Positions 1,495 through 62,030 of a stretch of 64,000 nt of DNA are shown here, piece after piece (the first letter of the stretch is position 1; each line of letters begins with the position of its first letter). The DNA comes from Crambe crambe. Its lineage: Eukaryota; Porifera; Demospongiae; Poecilosclerida; Crambeidae. Made by a program: the position numbers and the translations under genes. The DNA is taken from NCBI GenBank assembly GCA_963924555.1, contig OZ004586.1, forward strand, positions 8,514,501-8,578,500. Direction: 5' to 3'. The notes beneath the pieces are model-generated. The model had not been told where the DNA came from, made no database searches, and saw only the letters and a program-made list of their open reading frames with translations.

Positions 1495-2049
1495 TAGCCT
1501 CGTCCCCAGGCCCTCTTTAATTATGATTGTGGAGGGCCTGGTACACGAAAACCATAGAAACCCATAGCGTGGGTGTGTCCAAGGAAACACATTCCCATCG
1601 CATACGTCACCGGTGCTTACGACCACACATGAGCACATGGCCCTGCCCGGCCAGGCCTAAGAAAGAAGAGACATTGAGCCATTGACCTGCCACTGAATTC
1701 GAGTGTTGCTACGCTAGCAGCAGATAGTATTGGAGCTGCCTATCGTTAGATAGTAAAGCTATCAAGTAGTCTAGATTTTAGGCTTAGCGCAGAATTCTTC
1801 ACGAGTTTGAATAAGTCCTTGGTTGTATGGCCATAGCGAATTGGTCATTTTGTTGTAGCAGAAGTTCTTCTGAACACCTGGTGCCTTTAGGTTGATCCTG
1901 TAGTCGCTCCAGTCCGTAGCCCAAATGCATGGGCATGCTCTTGTGCACTACCCACGCCCAATTAAGACAGTTCTACCCAGTTCTATCCCCCCGTGACTTT
2001 GCGTACCAGGCCCTCCTAACTAAAAAGAGGGCCTGGGGGGATGAGGCTA
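1495..2049. mobile_element. hAT-type MITE with 8-bp target duplication
   Basis: It begins TAGCCTCGTCCCCAGGCCCT and ends with the inverted counterpart AGGGCCTGGGGGGATGAGGCTA. The 8-bp direct repeat CCTCAAGT flanks it at 1,487-1,494 and 2,050-2,057. An inner inverted motif (GAGGGCCTGGTAC) repeats the subterminal part. The 8-bp duplication fits the hAT superfamily. The same terminus recurs at 7,384 and 24,586. It has landed in a duplicated stub of the METTL14-like exon, since the target CCTCAAGT matches METTL14 exon sequence near 2,780. Confidence 0.8.
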
Positions 2050-2058
2050 CCTCAAGTG

Positions 2059-2648
2059 TGATGCTATAGATTACAGGGGATTCCTCTTAATAATGGAGTG
2101 GCAAGGGGATGATGCTGTAGATCACAGGGGGTTCCTCTTAATAATGGAGTGGCAAGGGGATGATGCTGTAGATCACAGGGGGTTCCTCTTAATAATGGAG
2201 TGGCAAGGGGATGATGCTGTAGATTACAGGGGGTTCCTCTTAATAATGGAGTGGCAAGGGGATGATGCTGTGGATTACAGGGGGTTCCTCTTAATAATGG
2301 AGTGGCAAGGGGATGATGCTGTAGATCACAGGGGGTTCCTCTTAATAATGGAGTGGCAAGGGGATGATGCTGTAGATTACAGGGGGTTCCTCTTAATAAT
2401 GGAGTGGCAAGGGGATGATGCTGTAGATTACAGGGGGTTCCTCTTAATAATGGAGTGGCAAGGGGATGATGCTGTGGATTACAGGGGTTCCTCTTAATAA
2501 TGGAGTGGCAAGGGGATGATGCTGTAGATCACAGGGGGTTCCTCTTAATAATGGAGTGGCAAGGGGATGATGCTGTGGATTACAGGGGTTCCTCTTAATA
2601 ATGGAGTGGCAAGGGGATGATGCTGTAGATCACAGGGGTTTCCTCTTA
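2059..2648. repeat. 51-bp minisatellite, about 12 copies
   Basis: The unit contains GGAGTGGCAAGGGGATGATG and GTTCCTCTTAATAAT, period 51 bp (50 in the last three copies where a G is lost). Copies alternate between GTAGATCACAG, GTAGATTACAG and GTGGATTACAG. Because 51 is divisible by three the array is an open frame of 134 codons. That frame is a by-product of the repeat and not a gene. Confidence 0.92.
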
Positions 2649-2740
2649 ATATATCATATCAATATATTTATGTAAATGACGTTAATTAAATAAGTTGAGA
2701 GAGGTGAGAGTGGTTTCCTTTTCTTTGTTCTCGTGCACAG

Positions 2741-5700
2741 GATGAACAGATCAAGAAGCGTGCCACTCACCCCATGTACCTCAAGTATGACCTTCGTACC
2801 TTTGACTTGAACTCCCTGAGCACCAAGTTCGATGTGATCCTGATCACCCCACCCCTGGAGGAGTTACAGCGCAGGGCCAGTGGGGTCACCTTCAGTTGGG
2901 AGCCGTAGGAGTGGGAGGACATCATGGGATTCAAACTGGAGGAGGTATCCGCACAAAGGTCCTTTATCTTCCTCTGGAGTGGTTCCAGCGAGGGCTTGGA
3001 CATAGGTGGGTGTGGCTCAAGGGTATGGATTTAGGTATCAGTGGGTGTGGTTCAAGATTTCGGCTAGGTGTGGGTGGGTGTGATTCATGTGGGTGTGGTT
3101 CAGTACAGGTGGGTGTAGTTCAAGAATTCAAGACATGGGTGGGTGTGGTTCAAGGAATAGATATGATCCTCTACTCTTTGGTGAGTCAATATACTAGGTA
3201 TGGATGTTACTTCATGCGCATATCATGTGTGGGGTGTTAGTGTATCTTTCCCCACGTCTAAAGTTTACACAAAAAAAAACATTTGGGAACACAACAATGA
3301 TGATTATGGGAATTGTAGTTTATCACAACAATACATGGTTCATTATCCAATAACAAGCTAACCATCTGTAATACAGTAAGTAGAGATGAGTATTGATGTA
3401 TCTGTTTTCGTGCATGGCATCTTTATTTTGAAGCATCGTACATGGTTTTGGTCAGCAAGCCACACTCTGCCTCTTCCATCCACTGCCATTCCACGAGGAT
3501 GACACACACCCTCTCCTTTCCCTCTCTCATCCAATACGAGTGGTTTTCCATCATCACTGAATGCCATGACCCTGTTCCCTTCCCAGTGACTGACAAACAC
3601 CACATCATCACTGATGCAGATGCAAACAGGATGAACCTGTTTCATATCGTCTCTACGTCTCTCATCAAACTTATCAATAAGCGATCCCTTATCTGTAAAG
3701 ACTTGGATGGAATTGGTATCAGCAACATACACTTTGCCACTGGCACTGCAAGACACGTCAGACGGGAACATAAATTCTGATCAACCTCTCCTGCCAAAAC
3801 TGTGAGAGAAAGTCAAATCTTTCTTGCACTCTCTGATTGTCAATTTCTGTGATGTATATTATGTCTTGCGTGTGAAGGTGCACGGCAATGCTGTAGGGAA
3901 ACTCAAACTCTAAGGGTCCGTTCCCACATCTACCTACTGTGGTGAGCAATTTCCCATCTTCTGAGAACTTTTGGACTCGATGATTTTTCTTGTCCACCAC
4001 TAACACACATCCTTCGCTGTCAACTGCCACTCCCCGAGGACTGTCCAACTGTCCCTCACAGGATCCACACATTCCAAAGGATCAAAGTTTGGCTCCTTTA
4101 TCATTGAATACAGAGACACAATTTCCACCATTTTCAACCACGAAAATCTCCTCTTTTGTTTTTGCCCATAGCCACTTCCCATGGTCCCTCTCCCCTCTCA
4201 ATACTCACAATTGGAGTGTCCAAATTGAGGGTGTGGTCATAATACCTTCTACTCCTTTGGCCATTCACTTCGTGTATGTGATCCATTATGTTCTGGATAA
4301 TAGAAGCAGTCTGTAGATCTGCCACACCTCCAAATGGGAGGGATGTGGCTTGATGACAGACAGGACAATTGATTTCCATTAGTTCCTGTTTTGTGAGCTG
4401 TTGGATGCAACATCTACAGAACACTGAAGGAACTTGGGCTCCTTCAACTGGAGCAGACAAACTGGACAAGCTAACTCCTTTTCAAGCTTCTTGAGTATAG
4501 TGAATCGTCATCAGACAGGTGATGGTGTGCCACCACCACTCATAGTGGACATATTCTAGTTGAATCTATATCCTTATAGCTTTATAAGACTGAATTAATT
4601 ACCTATTAACTCTCACTCTATCAGATCTTTGATCAAGAGCTGCGGTCTAAGTGGAACTGCTATCATAGCCAACACTCGTGAATCTTCTGTTTTTGTTTAT
4701 TCTTGTGAGACTAAACAATCTGCACATTGTGATTCAAAAACACAATTCAAATCTAGCTAGTGTGTCATATGATTTCCATTACGTGTGTAGCTATGTGTGG
4801 AGTCTTCATGAATATAGCTATACATGCTTCCTGCATGTGAACTTAGTGTAGCTATGTTATGAATCCCATGGATAATGAATATGATTACTCATTATAGCTG
4901 CTTGCATGCATCATTGACATCTGTAATGCAGTGTAAGCTATTTTGGTGGAACACAGAAATTAGATTTTTCCCCATTATATATTTAAGTAGCTACATTATT
5001 ACATTATTCCATGGCCGCAAGAGGTACTCTATAGCTATGCAGTGGAACCTTAATAAAAGGACACACTTTCTCTCATATCTTTGTATATACATGCATACAC
5101 TGCCTCCAAAGAGGAAAAGGCTGCATGGATCCCAAGTTATTCAGAGGTTCCACTGCATGTACTTATAGAATTAATACTGATGTTCTTTCAGAAATGCAAT
5201 TTGCTTGCCTTGATTATAACATCCCAGGCCTTAGTAGCTATTTTCATAAGAGAGGAGATATTATAGGGAGCAATTAGCTGCAGTAATTAATAAAGGAGCT
5301 GATAGCTGTAATAAGCAATGTTCAGCATGGACCGGTGGCTTCCTCCTCCATGCAGGGAGAGAGTGTTTCAAGAAGTTTGCGAGGACATTTGCTGGGTTAA
5401 GTCAAACATCAACAGACCAGGCAACAAAACTTACCTCGACCAGAAATCCATTTTCCAGAACACAAAAGAACACTGCTTAATGGGTAAGTGTGTAGGGTCC
5501 ATGCCATAACGTATGCATGTATCTGCAGCCTCTGCATGCAACCTTTTGTAAGCTAATTATGATTCAAGATTTTTGAGACTTGGCATTGATTGCATGGCTG
5601 TGTAAGTTTACCTCCAAGGTGACTGGATTATAATTTTGGCATAGATTTATATCATAGTTAGAAGATGTCTTTCATTAGATTTAGTGCCAGGGTCCTATTT

Positions 5701-23010: not shown

Positions 23011-24586
23011 TACACAGGTGCTGATAAATCCTTGCTGCGTATTTAGATAAAAGCTGATAACTCCCTTCTATAGATTGCGTGATAATACGCGAACCGGGTG
23101 GGGAGAGGGCCTGGTACAGACTATTTGCGCATGCGCTAACTTTTCCGTAAATATTTCAGTAAATTTCTCCGCACATTGTTTAATCATAGATATAAGAGGT
23201 TTACGGGATTGGAAACGGATCACGTGCTCTCGTTAGCAACTAACAACCGAGGCGCGTTGACAGCTGAATGACATAGCACTTTTGTCAAACTTGAAAGTTG
23301 CTGTTCTGACAAGATCCGTGAGGTAAGACTTATGCCAATGATACTATAATACACTAGGGCATAGATTTACTGTATGAAATAAATTTCAGCTCAGATTTTC
23401 AAGTTTAATCCTACAAATACTACTGTAGTGGTTAATGGGGACTATAATCCCTCTCACGCTTGATAGAATCAATTGCTGTTGCCCATTTTCTGATCAAAAG
23501 GCATGTAAACTTTAGCTACATGGAATAGTAATGTTAGTTTTTGTATTAGCTGACATATATTGTCTCTAGCATTTGCAAGTGGTGTTAAAACTGTAATCCC
23601 TCTCCCGAGAAATTGATTAACAATATTGCAACTGTATTAGTTGTTTCAGGGAAAGGATAGAACAGTAAATGGAATTGGTGCATTCGTTTTCTATACAATA
23701 GTCATCCTATGGAGATGGCAAGCTTACTATATTTCCCCCCTAATATCCATAGGGTCCACAGGACAGCTGACTGAGCCGAATTCTTGAGGTGGATGGTGTC
23801 AAAATCCAACAGCCAAAAGCTGGAAGTATTGCAATAATGCTGATGAGGGAGAACTGAGCAGAAACTGGCGGATAACTTTGGGGCAGAATTATCTAGCTAT
23901 AATAATGATGAATTTATGTCTAATTTTAATACCAAAAGTCATTCTGGCCTTTCTTTCAAATCAATCACATAAAATTAATGTATAATGAGCAATGATAGGT
24001 ACTCATAGTTATAATTACAAGGAAAAAAGTTATGAATAATTAATAACTTCCTTCCTCAGACTCTCCAACTTCAACTCTCTGACTCTTCACTTCTTCAATA
24101 CCTTCCCCTTAGCTTACTTGTACTATTCTGTGAGCTGTAGGGGCAGAACATCACTTTAACTGCCTTGAAAGGAGTGAAAATTGATCTCCTTTCACGGCCA
24201 TTAATATAATTAATGCTGCATGCGCGTGCGCATCTGTCAACGCGCCTCGGTTGTGCAGTTCATTGGGCGTTTCCAATCCCGTAAAACCTCTTATATCTAT
24301 GGTTTAATCTACGTGGATTCAAAACGGAGAAATATTACGGACCACAAATACGGCTTGCCGCGTGATAGCTGGGAAACCACATGTCAAATCAAGTGGCAAA
24401 GAAAGGTCAAAGGTTAAGCTTATCCGTTTGACGTTCGCGACATTAGAAGTTTACTGCTTAGATATGCTGAGTGCTTTACAAAGGTATACGGATTCCCAGA
24501 TTTTCTGGGAAAATAGAGCATGCGCAAACAGTCTGTACCAGGCCCTCTCCTTCTTCGTGGGAGGGGCCTGGGGACGAGGCTAGTCT
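23011..24586. mobile_element. right half of the host repeat, with nested P MITE
   Basis: From 23,011 the sequence continues the repeat interrupted by the KDZ unit (ACACAGGTGCTGATAAATCC onward). Between 23,108 and 24,545 GGCCTGGTACAGAC and GTCTGTACCAGG form an inner inversion. It ends at 24,586 with GGGGCCTGGGGACGAGGCTA, the same terminus as the elements at 1,495 and 7,384. A P-type MITE (23,185-24,301) sits inside. It has no conserved gene; the small frames here are not supported. Confidence 0.65.
23185..24301. mobile_element. P-superfamily MITE A, copy 1
   Basis: Ends CATAGATATAAGAGGTTTAC and the inverse GTAAAACCTCTTATATCTATG, each followed inward by CGGGATTGGAAACG. The 7-bp target duplication GTTTAAT lies at 23,178-23,184 and 24,302-24,308. 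It is 1,117 bp with no coding frame. It is nearly identical to the copy at 60,877-61,985. The end blocks match the autonomous P-like element at 38,727-43,750, which is the likely source of transposase. Confidence 0.88.
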
Positions 24587-36264: not shown

Positions 36265-38346
36265 CATAGATACTATACTCCGCCCCGGGATTGGAAACGA
36301 AGTCTGCGCATCCAATTTTTTCCATTACAACAATACAAAACATGCGCGGACACTCCGTGTTGTATAGTAACGGTCGTCAACAAGCCGTAGCAACGGAGGT
36401 TTTTTCGTTATTATAAGGTGAGCAATAGAATCTATACGGTAAAAAGATGGTCAAACTTTAGTATCCATAGGTAACTTACTAATGCTATAAATTCAGTAGA
36501 GCAAAAGCAGTTTGGGATAGAGATATTCTCACTCCAAGAAATAAATATATGTACAGAACTTGTTGGGGTAAAAATGTCCATATAAGAAGCATTTGAGCAT
36601 TATTTTTTCATGAATCTGCTGCAACTAGGATTGGGATATCGCTTGAGCTTGTTTATAACAAGTGTGCTACAATAATAGTCTAGTTTTACCCAGTTAGAGG
36701 TATGATAGGGTCTTAACTGGTCGGGGGAAGAACATCAGTACTATAATATTAAAAGAAAAGCTCCATCATGCAAATACTAAAGCTAGGACTAGATTATCGC
36801 TTGAGCAATATAAGATTTGGTGTACTCTTGTAATGATGCACTTTTGCTAATCTATAAATTATGACATTGATCAGCTATCTGTAAAGTAACACCACATTCA
36901 TATATAGCTAGCTAACTACAACCATGACTATAGCTGTGCATTGTGCATGGGATACTAAGCTATATAGGCTAGCTATGTCTATCAGCCATGGGTGGAAGGA
37001 AGTTTCGCTTGAGTGCTCGAAGATCATGCAGAAAGAAGCAGCAGCAGAGAGCGATCAATGCATGGGCTTAGAGCATATCATTTCCCAACAACAAGCTGAA
37101 TCCTATGAATTGTGAATTATTGTGGAATTTACCTACTGTGGTATCAAGTGTTCCTGCTATTGAAACCAAAAATTGATTCCAGCAAAGTATATGTACTGGA
37201 AATGCAGATACCAACCTCATCAAAATGACATTATCAGTAAAAGAAAATTCAAGACCCCTTCCTAAAAGATCAAGACCACAGAAAGTGTCTAAAAAACCTC
37301 TTGGGTTATAATAGCATGTAGCTATAGCTTGATGCTGACATTATTCCACAAGTATATTATTATAACATCAATATTTAAGATGATTGGGGTGACACTCACT
37401 GGAACTAGATTCAGAAATTAGTTGTTTTCTTATTTTTGCATGGTTTTCTTATGTGTGGCCTTAAAGTTTTCTATCCACGAGGAGGCATAGGAAAATCCTC
37501 TGATTTTCAAAAACTGGCTGACCACCATATGCAGGAGGGCAACACTGCTCTCCTCTTACCATTCCTCATTCAAGAGGGATCAACTTGATCACTTTCTGCT
37601 ATCTCCTTCATAACCGCATCTGTCAGCTCCATATCTTTTCCCAGTCTGTTTCTCACCTCGTATTCTATCACAACAAAAACATCAAATGTTTTATTATTTA
37701 CTAGGGTGAGACCACCACAATCCACTAGGTCTACCCAGTCATGTGAGTCATCATCATCATCTTCTTCATCACCATCATCATCAGCCAGTAGCTAGATCAC
37801 TGATGCACAAAATTATGTTGCTCCTTTTTCAATGGATGAGTTGAAGTAGAAAGTTTCTTTTTCAACAGTCTTGGAATAATCCAGCAACAAATCGTAGAGC
37901 GTTTCTTTCATTGTAAGTTAATGATGGTGGTGGAGTGGAAGCTACAGTAGGTACAGGATGACAGATCTTTATCAGTTCCTTAATAATGTGATATCCAATA
38001 TACTGTACAGGATTCATTAAATTCGATACAGGATTGCTCTAATACATCCTTCCACATTGTTTGGTACGTATCACACACTCATATTTTGTGGTAAGATGAC
38101 TATGTTTGCTCTCTGTTTTTTTGTTTTGTTCTTCTTAGTAAACTTATTGTGATGATTTATACTTATAAGTATCAAATTTGTAAGTACTGTAGCTTATCTT
38201 GTCCTTCTAGCTCATCTAGTATGCTTATTGTAGAACAAGAAGCCATTGTCATAACGACAAATTTTCGCGCGCAATTTCTCCTCCAACACGGAGTGTCCGC
38301 GGGAAATCTCCGGTTTCCAATCCCGGGGCGGAGTATAGTATCTATG
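36265..38346. mobile_element. P-superfamily element B, internally decayed
   Basis: Ends CATAGATACTATACTCCGCC plus CGGGATTGGAAACG, inverted at the right (GGCGGAGTATAGTATCTATG). CTATAAT is duplicated at 36,258-36,264 and 38,347-38,353. It is 2,082 bp. It contains a degraded minus-strand copy of the accessory gene found in the autonomous element, but no transposase exons that I can see. It is the evidence that the accessory gene belongs to the P elements and is not a passenger of one copy. Confidence 0.88.
37395..37914 (-). pseudogene. decayed homologue of the P-element accessory protein
   Basis: The minus strand reads ETLYDLLLDYSKTVEKETFY, then an acidic run, then HDWVDLVDCGGLTLVNNKTF, IEYEVRNRLGKDMELTDA and, after a shift, FLKIRGFSYASSWIENFK. 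It aligns segment for segment with the C-terminal half of the accessory protein at 38,920-40,069 (EWVGSVDRGGG, FALLCSIEYALRREL, ITIRGFSFASSVMEMYK). There are at least three stops and one frameshift. Confidence 0.7.
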
Positions 38347-38597: not shown

Positions 38598-38648
38598 ATA
38601 TGATTGGTGCATTAGTTAGACTCACCATTGTATCTCTACAAAACGATT

Positions 38649-38720
38649 AGTCTCGCGGGCCAGACTCGATTCTTTCCTTTTTCTTGGAAAAGAAAAAATC
38701 GAGTCTGGCCCGCGAGACTA
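38649..38720. repeat. 72-bp near-perfect hairpin
   Basis: TAGTCTCGCGGGCCAGACTC and its inverse GAGTCTGGCCCGCGAGACTA enclose a smaller self-complementary CTTTTTCTTGGAAAAGAAAA core. It ends exactly at the target site of the autonomous P-like element. Related partial hairpins occur at 36,240-36,260 and 33,480-33,505. Confidence 0.85.
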
Positions 38721-38919
38721 CATAACCATAGATAATCTATACTACGTACACGGGATTGGAAACGGCTGGATTAACCCTCTCAATCCTTGACCCGGATTTA
38801 ATCACGTGCGATTTTACGGGTTATTCGATTAACCCTTCGATGGTTGTATAAAAATTGGCGCGCAAGATTGCATGCATGCTAGCTAGCTAGCTACCGTATG
38901 TGGTTTGCGGTTGTTCTGA

Positions 38920-40069
38920 ATGGCTGATCTTGTTACTTCTCCTAGTGCGAGTGATATAGAAGATGCAAATGAGCTACCTATCCCCGCAAGGATCCTCGAT
39001 ATTCAGGTGAACTTAGCTATTATTGTTATGTCCAGTATAAATTATTTAGCATAGAGCAAGCTAGCTTATTACTGGGCTCTATTGGCAAGCTAGCTAAATT
39101 AACTAAGGATTGGTACTTATAGGAAAGGAATATACATATTAAAAGCTGCCTGCAAGGCCATAGAAGATGATGAATGTTTCTCGGTTGAAGCAGAGGGAAT
39201 GAAAATTTATCTTTCTTCAGCAAGAAAGTTGAGGGAGTACATTGAAAAGAATAGTTCAGAAGAAAAAGTAATTGAATTTACAGAATGGCTGTTGGCTCAA
39301 CTACAGACCATTGTACGTAAAGCTACCAAAGCTTCATTGGACCAGGTAGTTTTATGGTCGCATTTCCACCATTTTCGTTGCAGTGATGGTTTCAAGGAAA
39401 AGTGGAAAACATTTTTGTCTTATTCTGCATTAACCGATTCTTCTATATTTTATCAGACTCTTACTACTCGTATTTTAGACTATATAATATTAGATTCATT
39501 CCCAATTCCTACCGAAACCCCTTTCCCTGATTCAAGTGTCAATAATTTGACGTATGAAGAGGAAAATGCTATCAGATACGTCGGTGGTTACATCATCAAA
39601 ACATTGAAGAAGCAAAACTGTGACACTATAGATGTAGCTTTGAATGATTTGGTGGATGAAGATGGTAGTGGAGAAGCTGATGAATCAGGAGAGTGGGTGG
39701 GCAGTGTTGATAGGGGGGGGGGGGGGGTTTGATTTACATTAGTGATCCTGCATTTGCTTTGTTATGTTCAATCGAGTATGCTTTGAGAAGAGAGTTAAAT
39801 GTCCAGGCTGCACACACTATGGATGACAATTACCGCAAGAAGATGAAGGAATCAATTGAGAGTGATGAAGACGTGCAGTTCAACTGGACAATGGTTTCTG
39901 TTGAAATGGATGATGAAGTGTCGGAAAAAATTTTAGACCTAATTATAGATAAATGGATTACCATTCGTGGATTTTCATTTGCGAGTTCAGTGATGGAAAT
40001 GTATAAAATGGAGACCAAGCAAGGGACCCAGAAGGCGAAGAGATTGCGACATGATGTTACTCAAAAATA
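38920..40069 (+). CDS. P-element accessory protein, function unknown
   Basis: Exon 1 is 38,920-39,006 (MADLVTSPSASDIEDANELP onward, 29 codons). The second exon starts near 39,123 and is open to the G15 tract at 39,713-39,727. Reading resumes in another frame (ISDPAFALLCSIEYALRREL) to a TAA at 40,067-40,069. Two joints are imperfect: the first intron junction is off by one base, and the G15 tract shifts frame. Both could be assembly error, since long G runs are hard to sequence. Conserved-looking segments are YLSSARKLREYIEKN, LTYEEENAIRYVGGYIIKTL, an acidic linker, VDRGGG, SIEYALRREL and ITIRGFSFASS. No catalytic signature or known domain is seen. A homologous but dead copy lies in the divergent P element at 36,265-38,346, so the gene is a lasting part of this transposon lineage. 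It may regulate or assist the transposase. Confidence 0.65.
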
Positions 40070-40280
40070 AAATCCACAATCCACTTTGCATTATTCTTTT
40101 ACATGCACCGGGACATCCAGGTGTGCACCAACCAGTTGCAAAGACACTTTTTATTTCATGCCTTTCATGCTTTTCCTTTTTTTTTTTTTTTTTTTAACTG
40201 GCTTTTATAAAAGCCACTAAGTTAACAAAAGATTCACTTTTTTTCTTTCAAAGTATAATGTAGATGAATAAATTAGGACA

Positions 40281-43122
40281 TTAATTATTGACTTTTCTTC
40301 TCTTGCAGAGAGGTTGATTAGGCATATCATGCTGAAATTCAGTCTTTCTTCCCTGGCAATTTCCTGTGATATCATCCAACCATATTCCATCAACAATCCT
40401 GATTGTTTCAGTACTCTTTATAGCTTCTGCTACTGCAGGATTATCATTTGTTGACCCTTTTTGACGCAGCTTCCCAAAATGTTTTTCTAAAATGTCCTGA
40501 TTTAGTTTGGAACTCAAGAATATGGTGACATCAGGTATCTCCATGATGCACGGAAGTAATTCCATGAAGGAGTGAGCTAGCATTATGGTAATTATTATTG
40601 CATATGCATTATGTTTTACAATGCAACCTACTAGTTATGTGTATGCCATCCAACGTTTCTTGGCTAAGAAGCATTCTCTTTTTTTCACCTTTTTTAAACC
40701 CTTTCCTTTCTTCCACAGATTTTTCCCACTGATTGAAATAGGGAAGGAGCTCTTCTTTCAGAAACTTTAAAGGTAGGTATTGATTGTGCCATGAGTTAAT
40801 AAAAAATATAAAGTTATCATTCACATTACCTTGATGCGAAAATCATTTTTACTCCTGTAAGGGTTCATAAATGGTTTCCTCTCATGTTTTCCTTTGGTAT
40901 ACGAGGAAACATTTAGGCAGTCAAAGAATTTATCCATTAGAGATAGAAAAAGAGATGTTTCTGATGCTTCTTCCCCCCCAGTGAGGGCCAAAGCTTGAGC
41001 AACACTTTCACTCAGAACCTATAGATATTTAGTATATAGAGCTATATTATACATGTATAGCTAGTTGTGTTATATAATACCTGAGCAGCTAGATCCACCC
41101 TCATTTTCGAAAAATTGTTCAAATAGATATGCTCATACTTCAATTTATGTGCTATGGACAGTCCAGGAGTTGATGTAATTGTACCAGTATTCCTTTTATA
41201 CAACTGACTGATGTGGTCCCACTTCAGGGATTTACCACAGCACTGCATGAAATGACAAAACAGAATGACAAGGCGACTTCAAATAGCTATATAAAGCTGC
41301 ATGTGTATAAAGCTCACCCACAAGTTCCTCTTTTTGCTAGCAAGGCAGTTCCTAGCAGTCTTCAAGAGGTGTGGAGGGTCTGATATAAAGAAAATTTCCC
41401 CTGACATGTAAACATTGCTGGTCTTGTAGACCAGCTCTTCTTTGAAGGAGTGCATGGCAAACATTTTTCGATTGCACTTTGCGCCATCACAAGTAACGGC
41501 TAGAATTTTGAAGTCCATTAGTGATAACCGTTCAATCGTCCGCCAGAGTAATGAAAATAATTCATAGGCTTTGAGAGTTTTTACGGGAAATAGGGCATAT
41601 GGGAAATGGAGCCCAGTTACCAGTCCTCTCAGCATGAAAACTACAATAGACCTATAAATTGTTGTAATAAGCTTATTATTAGTAGCTATAGTTATTCCCC
41701 AGATTACCAATTAACTACTCATTGTATATATAATTACTTAGCCAAAGAGTGCCTTGGAACATGATCCTGAATCTGGTATTGATTTTCATAATCAAGTAGG
41801 TGAGTGCCTATATCGTCTAGCTGAACAAAGCCAGTCAAACTCCCAGTAAACTTATTGAATATTAATCCTTCCTTTATGTACATTTCATCCACCAACAAGC
41901 ACAGGTTTTTGGCCAAGGATGGTGATGGCTTTGTTTGCTCCACCAATCTGAGGAGCTGTTGGTCTACTGCTGTGGAGAATCCAGTGGAAGAAGGGACAAA
42001 ATGCCGATAGTCTCTGAGTGTCCTGCCAGAAGGCAGCTCAATGATACCAGATTTTCGCAATGTTTCGTATGCACCACTGGACCTGTAATGAAGATAGAGA
42101 CACCACTTGATGACAAGTGGATGCCAGCGCATTGATCTTTTGCTCTTTAGCGTCATTGCTTTTAATTGCTGACTCCAAAAAATATGCTTGAAGGAGTCTT
42201 CTGCATGTGTTGAAAGAACTTTCGTGGAGTACTGTTCCATCAAAGCCTTCATGTCAGCATCAATTTCGGTGCACAGAGGTAAGCTTTGCCTCTCGAAAGA
42301 TCGTGCGATGATATTCTGCAGCCTAGCATATGATCGGTTCTTTTTGTGCAGTAAACTGTGCATGTTTTTCATACGCTCCGTAAGTTGCTCAGGATTCAAG
42401 AACCTGTAATTAGCATGACTGCTGGGAAGACAGATACTATTATCCTTCTTGTTGCAACGCCTTAGTGCACACTTTAGGTAGTTTTCTTGATGGATTGAAC
42501 ATTGGTGGCAATGATTTCTTATGCTCGTTCTTTCCAAGAAATACTGGCATTTGGCATGCCTAATGCAAGGTGGCTCATGTCTGTCATCCACATATGCTGT
42601 TATTAGGCCTATTATTGTATAATGATCATAGCTAGTAAGTAATGATTACACATCATTTATATTAATTATACCTTCAGCATTTGTAAAAATATCACCATGT
42701 GCCTTCATTTCAATCACTTGTGAGTATTTTGACAGGTCATTGCCAGTGCAGTAATGATAAGTATCAATTCTGCTAAGTAGTTCTAGTAATGCTTCTTTCC
42801 TTTCAATTGTGGGAGGAAGAGGCTCCAAAGAAGAAGGGAGGCTGATCTCTCCAAGTGGTGGAACAGTAACACTCCATTTCAACTCTTTGTTGATATCCAC
42901 TTTTATAGTCATCATTGCTCTAGAGTTGAACTTGCAGACTTGAATCATGCCATTAAGCTCAGGGAGCATGCACCATTTCCCCAAGTTTGCACATCTAAGG
43001 TCATCCCTTAGACTAAGGAACTTTGAAATTTTGCACGTCTCTAAACTTATGCTAATTTTCAAAGACTTGGGTCTATGATAGTACTTTCTGTGCCGGCCAA
43101 GTCTGAATTTTCTGTAACCCAT
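40281..43122 (-). CDS. P-element/THAP9-type transposase, about 807 aa, intact
   Basis: Seven minus-strand exons join in phase: 43,122-42,672; 42,596-41,738; 41,651-41,318; 41,242-41,081; 41,018-40,830; 40,764-40,632; 40,576-40,281. Order of motifs: a novel N-terminal region; CIRHAKCQYF...CHQCSIHQ; RWHPLVIKWCLYLHYRSSGA with LPSGRTLRDY (family signature); first acidic residue in LCLLVDEMYIKEG (about residue 388); second in LAVTCDGAKCNRKMF (about 493) followed by SDPPHLLKTARN; LKWDHISQLY; MRVDLAAQVL; NPYRSKNDFR; MLLSQETLDG; and the catalytic glutamate in SSKLNQDILEKHFGKLRQKG (about 738). All three catalytic acidic positions are intact, so it is plausibly active. No THAP zinc finger is seen at the N-terminus. 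A CAG/ATC acceptor just before the first ATG leaves room for an unseen upstream exon. Confidence 0.9.
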
Positions 43123-43868
43123 GATCTGCAATGTACATGGGGATTGTAATAATTATTTATCATACACTTTGAAACTCATATTTTATATTTCAGGTTATGT
43201 TATTGTATGGCTAATTATTACAATGCCACCCACTAGCCCTTCTACTCTTATGTCATATGGTTGATGAAGATTTTCACACTAAGGAAAGGCAGAAATTGCT
43301 TCAGCTCTGGGACTATGTTATTTTATTTCACTTATAAAAAACTAGCCCACCTTTAATAGTAGTGGTATAATTTATAGCCTAAGCCATGTAAAATCAAGTG
43401 TACAATGTGAATATTATGTTGCTTTGGCAAATTTCAGTACCATATGAGAGAAACTGCTTCAATACAGTTTTCAAGTAAGTACAACCCATGTGAAACTGCA
43501 CTTTCATGCTCGCATATATATTTTTTACTTCACTGATCCTTAGTTACTTTAGTGTACTTCGTATTTATTTACTCACCCAATTCTATACTCGAGTGCGTAG
43601 CGAAAAAATCGCAAACTATAACGGCTGATGCATTGATTCTGCATATCACCAAGCGGGTCAAGGAATGCGCAAAAATTATTGCATTGTCTCTATGGGCGCA
43701 CGTGACCCGTTTCCAATCCCGGGCCGTGTACGTAGTATAGATTATCTATGACATAACGATACCCATCTTCAGTTTTGCACTGGGTCCTTTTATAAGAGGT
43801 CACAGTGCATACATTTGAGCCCTTCGGGAAAAGGCCCACTTATTTTTTTGCGGGGCGGTTGAGTTGTT

Positions 43869-45228
43869 CCAAGGGCTTATCGAGTCGCGAAGCGACGAGA
43901 GGGCATGCAACTTCCAATGCTCTGTATATAGACGGCGTAATGTAAAATATTACTATAAATAGCTTAGCACGTGCAGGATTGGAAACAGGTCACGTGCGCC
44001 CATAACGACAATACTGACAATCCGTGCCGTGTAGGCAGCTGTTCGTGCTAAATTGCCCCAAACAAACAGGGGAGGAGAAGTAGTGTGCCAAATTTCTGCT
44101 AAACTATAGCCAATTGGTAAGTTCAAAGAATGCAAAGAGTGGGCTAGTATAGTGCTAAACAAGCATAGTTCTTAAAAAGGCTGGTTTCTCAAGTGTTAGA
44201 GGGTATAATTGCGAGTAACAATGGTAGTTCGACTTTGTGGACCTCTGGAGCTTGGATGTTAAAAGTATAGTCTCTTTTTCCCCACTAATCTGTTAGGTAG
44301 TGATCATTTATATGTACATATGTACTTTTTAAAGGTGCCTGTAAAAAAATCATGTCGATGTTACTGTTTCTTCAGATTACCCATGGCTGGCTGTCAAGAA
44401 AAGCTATATGTAAAGAAGGATACTATAATGTAACAACTAATACTGTCACTTTACACATATTTCCTTTCATGTTATAATAAAAAAAATGATAATAACAAGT
44501 ACTGATAGTGCACTGCTGAACATCCAATTCATCGAGAGATTTGTTGTGATATACTTGTTTTGAGGGATCAAGATGAAGAGTAAAGCTGCCCCAGTGTATC
44601 CTTTCCTGCCCCTGATACAAGGAGGTATCTCATCTCCTCATATAAGAACAACATAGTGAAATGGCTTCTTAAACCATCAATGGCAAATGGCATGCCATCT
44701 CCAGCCCTGCACAAAATTAAAACTACTTGAGTACATATGGTCAACTAGTATCCTTCATTTTATACCAAAAGTAAGGCAGCTAGACTTCTATTTTAGTAGT
44801 AGGAGTGCCACAAAATTTTTCAGTCACCTGTTTCCACGTTTTTCTTCCATAGCAACAGTAAACAGACTAAACTGACATGATAAACTACTACAGCTATAGG
44901 TCATTGAGCCTTTTCACTTATAATCATAATTATTGCTGCGCTAAATACCTTGCCTTTCATCCTCTTTCTTATTTTGTGTAAGATTTCTCTGTTCGCCAGG
45001 TACCTACACGGCCGGATGGTCTATAAATTCTACGCGCGCATGCCCTGTTTCCAATCCTGTAGCTGTAGCTGTGTACGTAGTCTAGTATATCTATGGCACG
45101 TGGTAGGCTCCGTCCGCATATGTCCGGATACTGCAGTAAACTGTGGTTAAATATAGTAACAATTTACATTTTGCCGTCTATACTAGCTGCATGCCCTCTC
45201 GCCGCTTCGCGGCTCGATACGCCCTTGG
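43869..45228. mobile_element. 5-bp-TSD element, TIR CCAAGGGC...
   Basis: CCAAGGGCTTATCGAGTCGC at the left matches the inverse of GCGGCTCGATACGCCCTTGG at the right over about 41 bp, ending at GGGCATGCA. TTGTT is repeated at 43,864-43,868 and 45,229-45,233. It has been entered by P-family element C and carries no gene of its own. A scrap of the same end lies at 26,513-26,530. Confidence 0.7.
43974..45095. mobile_element. P-superfamily MITE C, left outer end lost
   Basis: The right end is complete (CCAATCC ... CTAGTATATCTATG). The left begins at the inner block CAGGATTGGAAACAGG, so the outer CATAGATA block has been lost. GCACGTG is duplicated at 43,967-43,973 and 45,096-45,102. It has 1,122 bp without a gene. 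Its interior (44,122-45,051) is the source of the copy at 60,013-62,030. It lies only 217 bp from the autonomous element. Confidence 0.75.
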
Positions 45229-59756: not shown

Positions 59757-62030
59757 GTAAGGTATCGTCCGACACAAAATGGTGCAGAACCAATTCTCGA
59801 TCTCAGCTCAGTTCCAATCATTATTTTGGTGCGGTGTTGAAATAATTTCGCAGTTCGAATTAGAATTCGAATTAGAAATCGAATTCGAATTCGAATCGCG
59901 TTCATCTTAAAGGAATTGGAATTGGAATGTGTTTTTCACAGAGAAACTCGAAGTGGAATCGTGTTTAGCGCATAGCAAATTGGAATTGCAATAGTGTTTG
60001 GTGTATATGGAATTTCAAAGAATGCAAAGAGTGGGCTAGTATAGTGCTAAACAAGCATAGTTCTTAAAAAGGCTGTTTCTCAAGTGTTAAAGGGTATAAT
60101 TGCGAGTAACAATGGTAGTTCGACTTTGTGGACCTCTGGAGCTTGGATGTTAAAAGTATAGGTAGTGATCATTTATATGTACATATGTACTTTTTAAAGG
60201 TGCCTGTAAAAAAATCATGTCGATGTTACTGTTTCTTCAGATTACCCATGGCTGGCTGTCAAGAAAAGCTATAGTAAAGAAGGATACTATAATGTAACAA
60301 CTAATACTGTCACTTTACACATATTTCCTTTCATATTATAATTAAAAAAATGATAATAACAAGTACTGATAGTGCACTGCTGAACATCCAATTCATCGAG
60401 AGATTTGTTGTGATATACTTATTTTGAGGGATCAAGATGAAGCTGCCCCAGTGTATCCTTTCCTGCCCCTGATAGCTACAAGAAGGTATCTCATCTCCTC
60501 ATATAAAGAACAACAACATAGTGAAATGGCTTCTTAAACCATCAATGGCAAATGGCATGCCATCTCCAGCCCTGCACAAAATTAAAACTACTTGAGTATA
60601 CATATGATCAACTAGTATCTTTCATTTTATACCAAAAATAAGGCAGCTAGACTTCTATTTTAGTAGTAGGAGTGCCACAAAACTTTTCAGTCACCTGTTT
60701 CCACGTTCTTCTTCCATAGCAACAGTAAATAGACTAAACTGACATGATAAACTACTACAGCTATAGGTCATTGAGCCTTTTCACTTATAATCATAATTAT
60801 TGCTGCGCTAAATACCTTGCCTTTCACCCTCTTTCTTATTTTGTGTAAGATTTCTCTGTTCGCCAGGTACCTACACCATAGATATAAGAGGTTTACGGGC
60901 CGCGGGATTGGAAACGGATCACGTGCTCTCGTTAGCAACTAACAACCGAGGCGCGTTGACAGCTGAATGACAGCACTTTTGTCAAAGTTGCTGTTCTGAC
61001 AAGATCCGTGAGGTAAGACTTATGCCAATGATACTATAATACACTAGGGCATAGATTTACTGTATGAAATAAATTTCAGCTCAGATTTTCGAGTTTATTC
61101 CTACAAATACTACTGTAGTGGTTAATGGGACTGTAATCCCTCTCACGCTTGATGGAATCAATTGCTGTTGCCCATTTTCTGATCAAAAGGCATGTAAACT
61201 TTAGCTACATGGAATAGTAATGTTGGTTTTTGTATTAGCTGACATATATTGTCTCTAGCATTTGCAAGTGGTGTTAAAGCTGTAATCCCTCTCCCAAGAA
61301 ATAGATTAACAATATTGCAACTGTATTAGTTATTTCAGTGAAAGGATAGAACAGTAAATGGAATTGGTGCATTTGTTTTCTATACAATAGTCATCCTATG
61401 GAGATGGTAAGCTTACTATAATTATTTCCCCCCTAATATCCATAGGGTCCACAGGACAGCTGACTGAGCCGAATTCTTGAGGTGGATGGTGTCAAAATCC
61501 AACAGCCAAAAGCTGGAAGTATTGCAATAATGTTGATGAGAGAGAACTGAGCAGAAACTGGCGGATAACTTTGGGGCAAAATTATCTAGCTATAATAATA
61601 ATGAATTTATGTCTAATCTTAATACCAAAAGTCATTCTGGCCTTTCTTTCAAATCAATCACATGTATAATGAGCAATGATAGGTACTCATAGTTATAATT
61701 ACAAGGAAAAAAGTTATGAATAATTAATAACTTCCTTCCTCAGACTCTCCAACTTCAACTCTCTGACTCTTCACTTCTTCAATACCTTCCCCTTAGCTTA
61801 CTTGTACTATTCTGTGAGCTGTAGGGGCAGAATATCACTTTAACTGCCTTGAAAGGAGTGAATATTGATCTCTTTTCACAACGATTAATATAATTAATGC
61901 TGCATGCGCGTGCGCATCTGTCAACGCGCCACGGTTGTGCAGTTCATTGGGCGTTTCCAATCCCGTAAAACCTCTTATATCTATGCCTACACGGATGGTC
62001 TATAAATTCTACGCGCGCATGCCCTGTTTC
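59757..62030. repeat. rearranged duplicate of 44.1-45.5 kb
   Basis: 59,757-60,014 is the reverse complement of 45,262-45,518. 60,013-60,876 continues directly as a forward copy of 44,122-45,006. 61,986-62,030 resumes the same copy after a P MITE. The inverted and direct parts meet at TTCAAAGAATG. The copy ends in CCCTGTTTCC where the second gypsy begins. A double-strand-break or template-switch origin is likely. Confidence 0.85.
60877..61985. mobile_element. P-superfamily MITE A, copy 2, with empty site available
   Basis: Same ends and interior as 23,185-24,301 (1,109 bp; a few substitutions and small indels). CCTACAC is duplicated at 60,870-60,876 and 61,986-61,992. The unoccupied site is preserved in the parental copy at about 45,000 (GGTACCTACACGGCCGGATG), proving the 7-bp duplication. 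Confidence 0.93.

Follow-up and report, generated by a model that had tools for sequence, protein, structure and literature searches.

A P-type transposon of the sponge Crambe crambe whose transposase is probably made as two polypeptides from convergent genes

In textbooks the P element is a transposon with a single gene. The enzyme of the fly P element needs an unusual GTP-dependent assembly; its C-terminal domain (CTD) lies between subunits. The fly protein and the zebrafish THAP9 protein are described as carrying a THAP domain and a CTD in one chain (PMC7776569, PMC10983969). In the account of the fly enzyme drawn on here, the CTD is helical, lies between an RNase H domain and another subunit's GTP-binding domain, is joined to the RNase H domain by a disordered linker and contacts both transposon and target DNA, reaching the target with a basic helix (PMC7776569). 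We analysed a 64,000-nucleotide stretch of Crambe crambe DNA (the window; contig OZ004586.1, here C9, positions 8,514,501 to 8,578,500) from a 143-Mb assembly. The window contains a two-gene P-type element of 5,024 bp (38727-43750), comprising a transposase gene and a convergent accessory gene. The accessory protein folds like the P transposase CTD and bears a weak sequence signature of it; this domain is missing from its partner transposases. It is likely, with a probability of roughly 0.8, that this is a P-superfamily transposon in which two convergent genes each encode one polypeptide of the transposase, the accessory one supplying the CTD. The computational support consists of the CTD homology, the absence of a CTD from the partner, convergent pairing, co-divergence of the two proteins and the recent mobility of a related family.

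The transposase features place the element in the P superfamily: it has an RNase H domain with a GTP-binding insertion, the DDE and D(2)H motifs (defined as in PMC4168063), terminal inverted repeats (TIRs) and a 7-bp target-site duplication (TSD). The RNase H domain with its insertion, both motifs and the helix-turn-helix (HTH) are shared with Drosophila P (6P5A, 6PE2) and zebrafish THAP9/Pdre2, and the TIR begins with CATA as reported for Pdre2 (PMC10983969). Three features of classical P and THAP9 fail here, namely the THAP domain, the CTD in the same chain and the 8-bp TSD, and the CTD sits instead on a second, convergent gene. Galileo of Drosophila resembles the present element in its P-superfamily transposase and mostly 7-bp TSDs and differs in having a THAP domain and long TIRs; the part of the Galileo paper used here does not mention a second gene (PMC4168063). 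A split P transposase, of which a literature search found no example, would be a new arrangement within the known P superfamily. The likeness to RAG-like transposons is one of layout only, as these belong to a different superfamily and RAG2 is not known to be a piece split off from the transposase. RAG-like elements (RAGL/ProtoRAG) are described as having convergent catalytic and partner genes between TIRs, as here, but they are kin of Transib with a 5-bp TSD (PMC7204232), in contrast to the P-type transposase and 7-bp TSD of the sponge element.

The transposase gene runs on the minus strand and is intact in seven exons, as the first-pass annotation of this DNA had claimed; the exons have GT-AG borders throughout and encode 807 amino acids without a stop. 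The three acidic catalytic positions that the annotation reported are D387, D492 and E740, accompanied by the D(2)H motif D528-H531. An acceptor-like site just before the ATG at 43122 makes a non-coding exon upstream of exon 1 possible. Pfam matches above the cut-offs were obtained for the TNP-like RNase H N domain (PF21787, E = 1.9e-20), the GTP-binding insertion (PF21788, 7.2e-19) and the RNase H C domain (PF21789, 2.1e-05), and the match to the P-type HTH was below its cut-off. Among the matches listed, a relative from another sponge, Dysidea avara, is 42 % identical over 86 %. The earlier label "THAP9/P" is right for the family and wrong for the domain, since the Pfam scan gave no THAP domain in the 807-residue protein at E ≤ 1; all 30 THAP matches in the whole genome are more than 6 kb from the nearest of at least 151 transposase loci.

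No CTD was found in the 807-residue polypeptide that carries the catalytic domain, and the transposases of all six paired elements examined are devoid of their own CTD. The catalytic E is followed by 67 residues in the window copy and in L002, 75 in L047, 76 in L048 and L049 and 71 in L050, and these tails in the transposases of the same genome are rich in K and R. The catalytic-E motif is visible in 4 of 41 database relatives, whose tails comprise 50-79 residues.

The accessory family is represented by 129 matches in the genome and by 94 relatives in the protein database. The first-pass annotation had found no recognisable domain in this protein, a statement that no longer holds. The only PDB match of the accessory sequence profile was chain 6p5a_B (E = 0.0047), and a structure comparison with the whole PDB gave the same chain at full coverage, with the next row 5.6 Z units lower. 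In 6P5A, chain B is the fly P transposase CTD modelled as residues 617-734, and the fold of these residues is present in the accessory protein; the transposase of the sponge element matches chain A. The CTD match was made with relatives of the window protein. Its CTD-like domain ends in a long helix rich in K and R. A precomputed PF22824 label is attached to 14 of the 94 relatives and was absent from local scans, and the match to PF12596 is weak. A chance likeness of helical folds, which would make the accessory protein an unrelated helper, is very improbable because sequence profile and structure independently pick the same short chain, the latter at such coverage and distance from the next row, and because the partner transposase lacks exactly that domain.

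Joined into loci, three accessory searches and two transposase-domain searches of the genome yielded at least 191 accessory and at least 151 transposase loci. A transposase was located within 6 kb of at least 106 of the 191 accessory loci, convergent in 98 cases, on the same strand in 6 and divergent in 2, with a median gap of 1.24 kb; chance alone would give about 2.4 such pairs. In a smaller first tally, 77 of 117 accessory loci were linked, 76 of them convergently. An inward TIR core was present 273-547 bp upstream of the accessory gene at 18 of 26 loci examined, several of which are copies of one family, in the opposite orientation at 2 and inside the gene at none. That homologues lie mostly outside P-type termini, which the first-pass annotation had named as a refutation of its reading, is not borne out by the 106 linked loci and the 18 upstream TIRs, with few of the 85 unlinked accessory loci opened. 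At least one kind of unpaired accessory locus is a deletion derivative, since the neighbouring element 36265-38346 keeps both ends, a perfect TSD and a decayed accessory gene, with no transposase among the matches listed. Without an accessory partner within 6 kb there are 50 transposase loci; as to active elements of this clade that dispense with the accessory gene, three such loci were opened, and in all of them the catalytic-E exon was also absent from the 4 kb inspected downstream.

Family-to-family distances in one protein correlate with those in the other (r = 0.76 over 25 families; r = 0.57 over 19 families once those more than 80 % identical were removed; 0 of 9,999 permutations in both cases), and the nearest neighbour is the same for both proteins in 14 of 25 families. 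The suggestion that the accessory gene is old and was inherited with the transposon is borne out by the genome-wide convergent linkage, the co-divergence and its presence in the decayed neighbour. A passenger gene, whether host-derived or captured, that serves some unrelated end, for instance contact with the host, would be expected to show neither homology to the CTD of the transposase, nor convergent pairing in many families, nor co-divergence, and we regard this explanation as highly unlikely.

A family related to the window element has moved recently, since L048 and L049 share 99.9 % identity across 4.9 kb yet carry different perfect 7-bp TSDs. Both have retained an open accessory frame of 342 amino acids. 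This bears on the idea of a regulatory role, in which the accessory protein, as a free CTD-like protein, would bind to the DNA of the element or to the transposase and hold back transposition, the catalytic protein working independently of a CTD. Truncated products of the fly P element do restrain transposition, and the DNA-contacting fold, the basic C-terminal helix and a separate gene allowing separate expression would all suit such a role. However, the six paired transposases lack a CTD in their own chain, so that a free one would supply what is missing and have no counterpart to compete with, and the open frames in near-identical recent copies also argue against a regulator, which we consider unlikely, though less so than a passenger gene or a chance fold. 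The first-pass annotation had proposed that the accessory protein assists or restrains transposition or contacts the host; the first of these survives in a sharper form, as the supply of the CTD, and no support was found for the other two.

In the proposed division of labour, the large gene would encode a catalytic subunit comprising an N-terminal domain, the HTH and the RNase H domain with its GTP-binding insertion, ending shortly past the catalytic E, and the accessory gene would encode the CTD with an additional helical domain in front of it. The accessory protein is taken as a transposase subunit because a domain that lies between subunits on a flexible linker can come separately, and a domain of this kind is present in the accessory protein. 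The extra N-terminal domain probably docks the CTD onto the catalytic subunit, and we infer that the two proteins bind each other physically. Assembly in trans would thus replace the linker of the fly type, and therefore both proteins should be needed for cutting and joining. It is a tentative extension, more doubtful than the split itself, that the split is the older state in animals, with the CTD originally on a convergent gene, that P and THAP9 of flies and vertebrates became one-chain proteins by fusion, and that the separate CTD is an obligatory licence for transposition, comparable to RAG2 for RAG1, with expression of two convergent genes gating the element.

A natural lineage with the CTD as a separate protein would reveal which contacts are essential in the assembly of the enzyme. 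If the split is real, it offers a ready-made two-component P system that could be gated and another convergent two-gene transposase beside RAG1/RAG2. It also suggests a function for the nameless stand-alone proteins of roughly 300 amino acids among the 94 database relatives, and the arrangement is common in its own genome, with at least 98 accessory loci convergent with a transposase.

Table 1. Positions of the two-gene element, its genes and neighbouring P-type elements in the window
Feature	Positions	Strand	Basis
Left TSD copy, ACATAAC	38720..38726	.	sequence read
Left TIR, 27 bp, perfect	38727..38753	+	inverted-repeat pairing
Accessory gene, probable exon 1, ATG to GT donor	38920..39006	+	analogy with the C1 copy L002
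Accessory gene, main exon, stop 40068-40070	39127..40070	+	open reading frames, CTD match of relatives, alignment with the C1 copy
15-G run breaking the accessory frame (8 G in the C1 copy)	39713..39727	+	
Transposase exon 7 with stop; E740, then 67 residues with basic tail, without CTD	40281..40576	-	
Transposase exon 6	40632..40764	-	
Transposase exon 5, GTP-binding insertion domain	40830..41018	-	
Transposase exon 4, GTP-binding insertion domain	41081..41242	-	
Transposase exon 3, D492 and D(2)H 528/531	41318..41651	-	
Transposase exon 2, HTH, start of RNase H, D387	41738..42596	-	
Transposase exon 1 (coding part), ATG at 43122	42672..43122	-	
Right TIR, 27 bp, perfect; 5-bp insertion breaks a longer match	43724..43750	-	inverted-repeat pairing
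Right TSD copy, ACATAAC	43751..43757	.	sequence read
Neighbouring P-type element, 2,082 bp, TSD CTATAAT	36265..38346	-	TIR/TSD ends, accessory matches
Short P-type elements, about 1.1 kb, TIR CATAGATATAAGAGGTTT, perfect 7-bp TSDs	23185-24301; 60877-61985		

The second spliced gene reported earlier is real as a family, but the copy in the window is not intact, being affected by the 15-G run and by the frame of exon 1. The acceptor of the main exon lies somewhere shortly before 39127; this exon encodes the N-terminal helical domain up to about 39540, then the P-transposase-like CTD and lastly the basic C-terminal helix. With the acceptors tried, exon 1 of the window copy does not join exon 2 in frame, while the later ATGs at 38963 and 38969 do, as does exon 1 of L002. 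The accessory gene of L002 is open across both exons for 232 amino acids and loses the frame just past its own 8-G run. The G tract thus differs in length between the two copies inside an otherwise conserved stretch, which may reflect either true slippage or a homopolymer error of the assembly. Accessory frames without a stop in other families of this genome are about 300-350 amino acids long. A natural chimera, seen once, was found in L051 (C5:4462500-4467000), where a single open frame of 400 amino acids (1924-3123, minus strand) joins the accessory N-terminal domain to a following transposase HTH and RNase H domain.

The ends of the main element agree with the first-pass annotation, with 27 of 27 TIR positions complementary and ACATAAC duplicated on both sides; the pairing extends to 39 bp apart from the 5-bp insertion in the right end. 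The second full-length copy, L002 on contig C1, is 96 % identical and has a 39-bp TIR pair without mismatch and its own perfect TSD, GCCATAG; many partial copies are present in the genome. In the window the TIR core motif has 10 occurrences, where chance predicts 0.02. The last base of a near-perfect hairpin with 33-nt arms (38648-38720) is at the same time the first of the left TSD.

The decayed accessory homologue placed earlier at 37,395-37,914 was confirmed, on the minus strand in three pieces within 37433-38038; the element that contains it is, edge to edge, 380 bp from the main element and not 2 kb. Near-copies of this neighbour (97-99 %) occur elsewhere in the genome, and a family of two-gene loci on contig C16 (accessory genes at C16:5515388 and 5583613) shows a 90 % match to the accessory part of this neighbour. 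Just right of the main element, 43974-45059 is bounded by an inward pair of TIR cores with one mismatch each, for which the script found no exact ends or TSD. A perfect 7-bp TSD flanks 8 of 11 elements examined (four in the window, where ends were picked jointly with the TSD, and L002, L047, L048 and L049); imperfect ones flank L009 (6 of 7 positions) and the 265-bp derivative L016 (a poor match), and 43974-45059 is the eleventh element. On contig C21 (274366-303634), eight matches to element positions 4385-4995, at 92-93 % identity, are present within 30 kb. They represent a 0.3-0.6-kb piece of the right part of the element, two of the eight being adjacent halves, and look as if this piece had been amplified into a local array.
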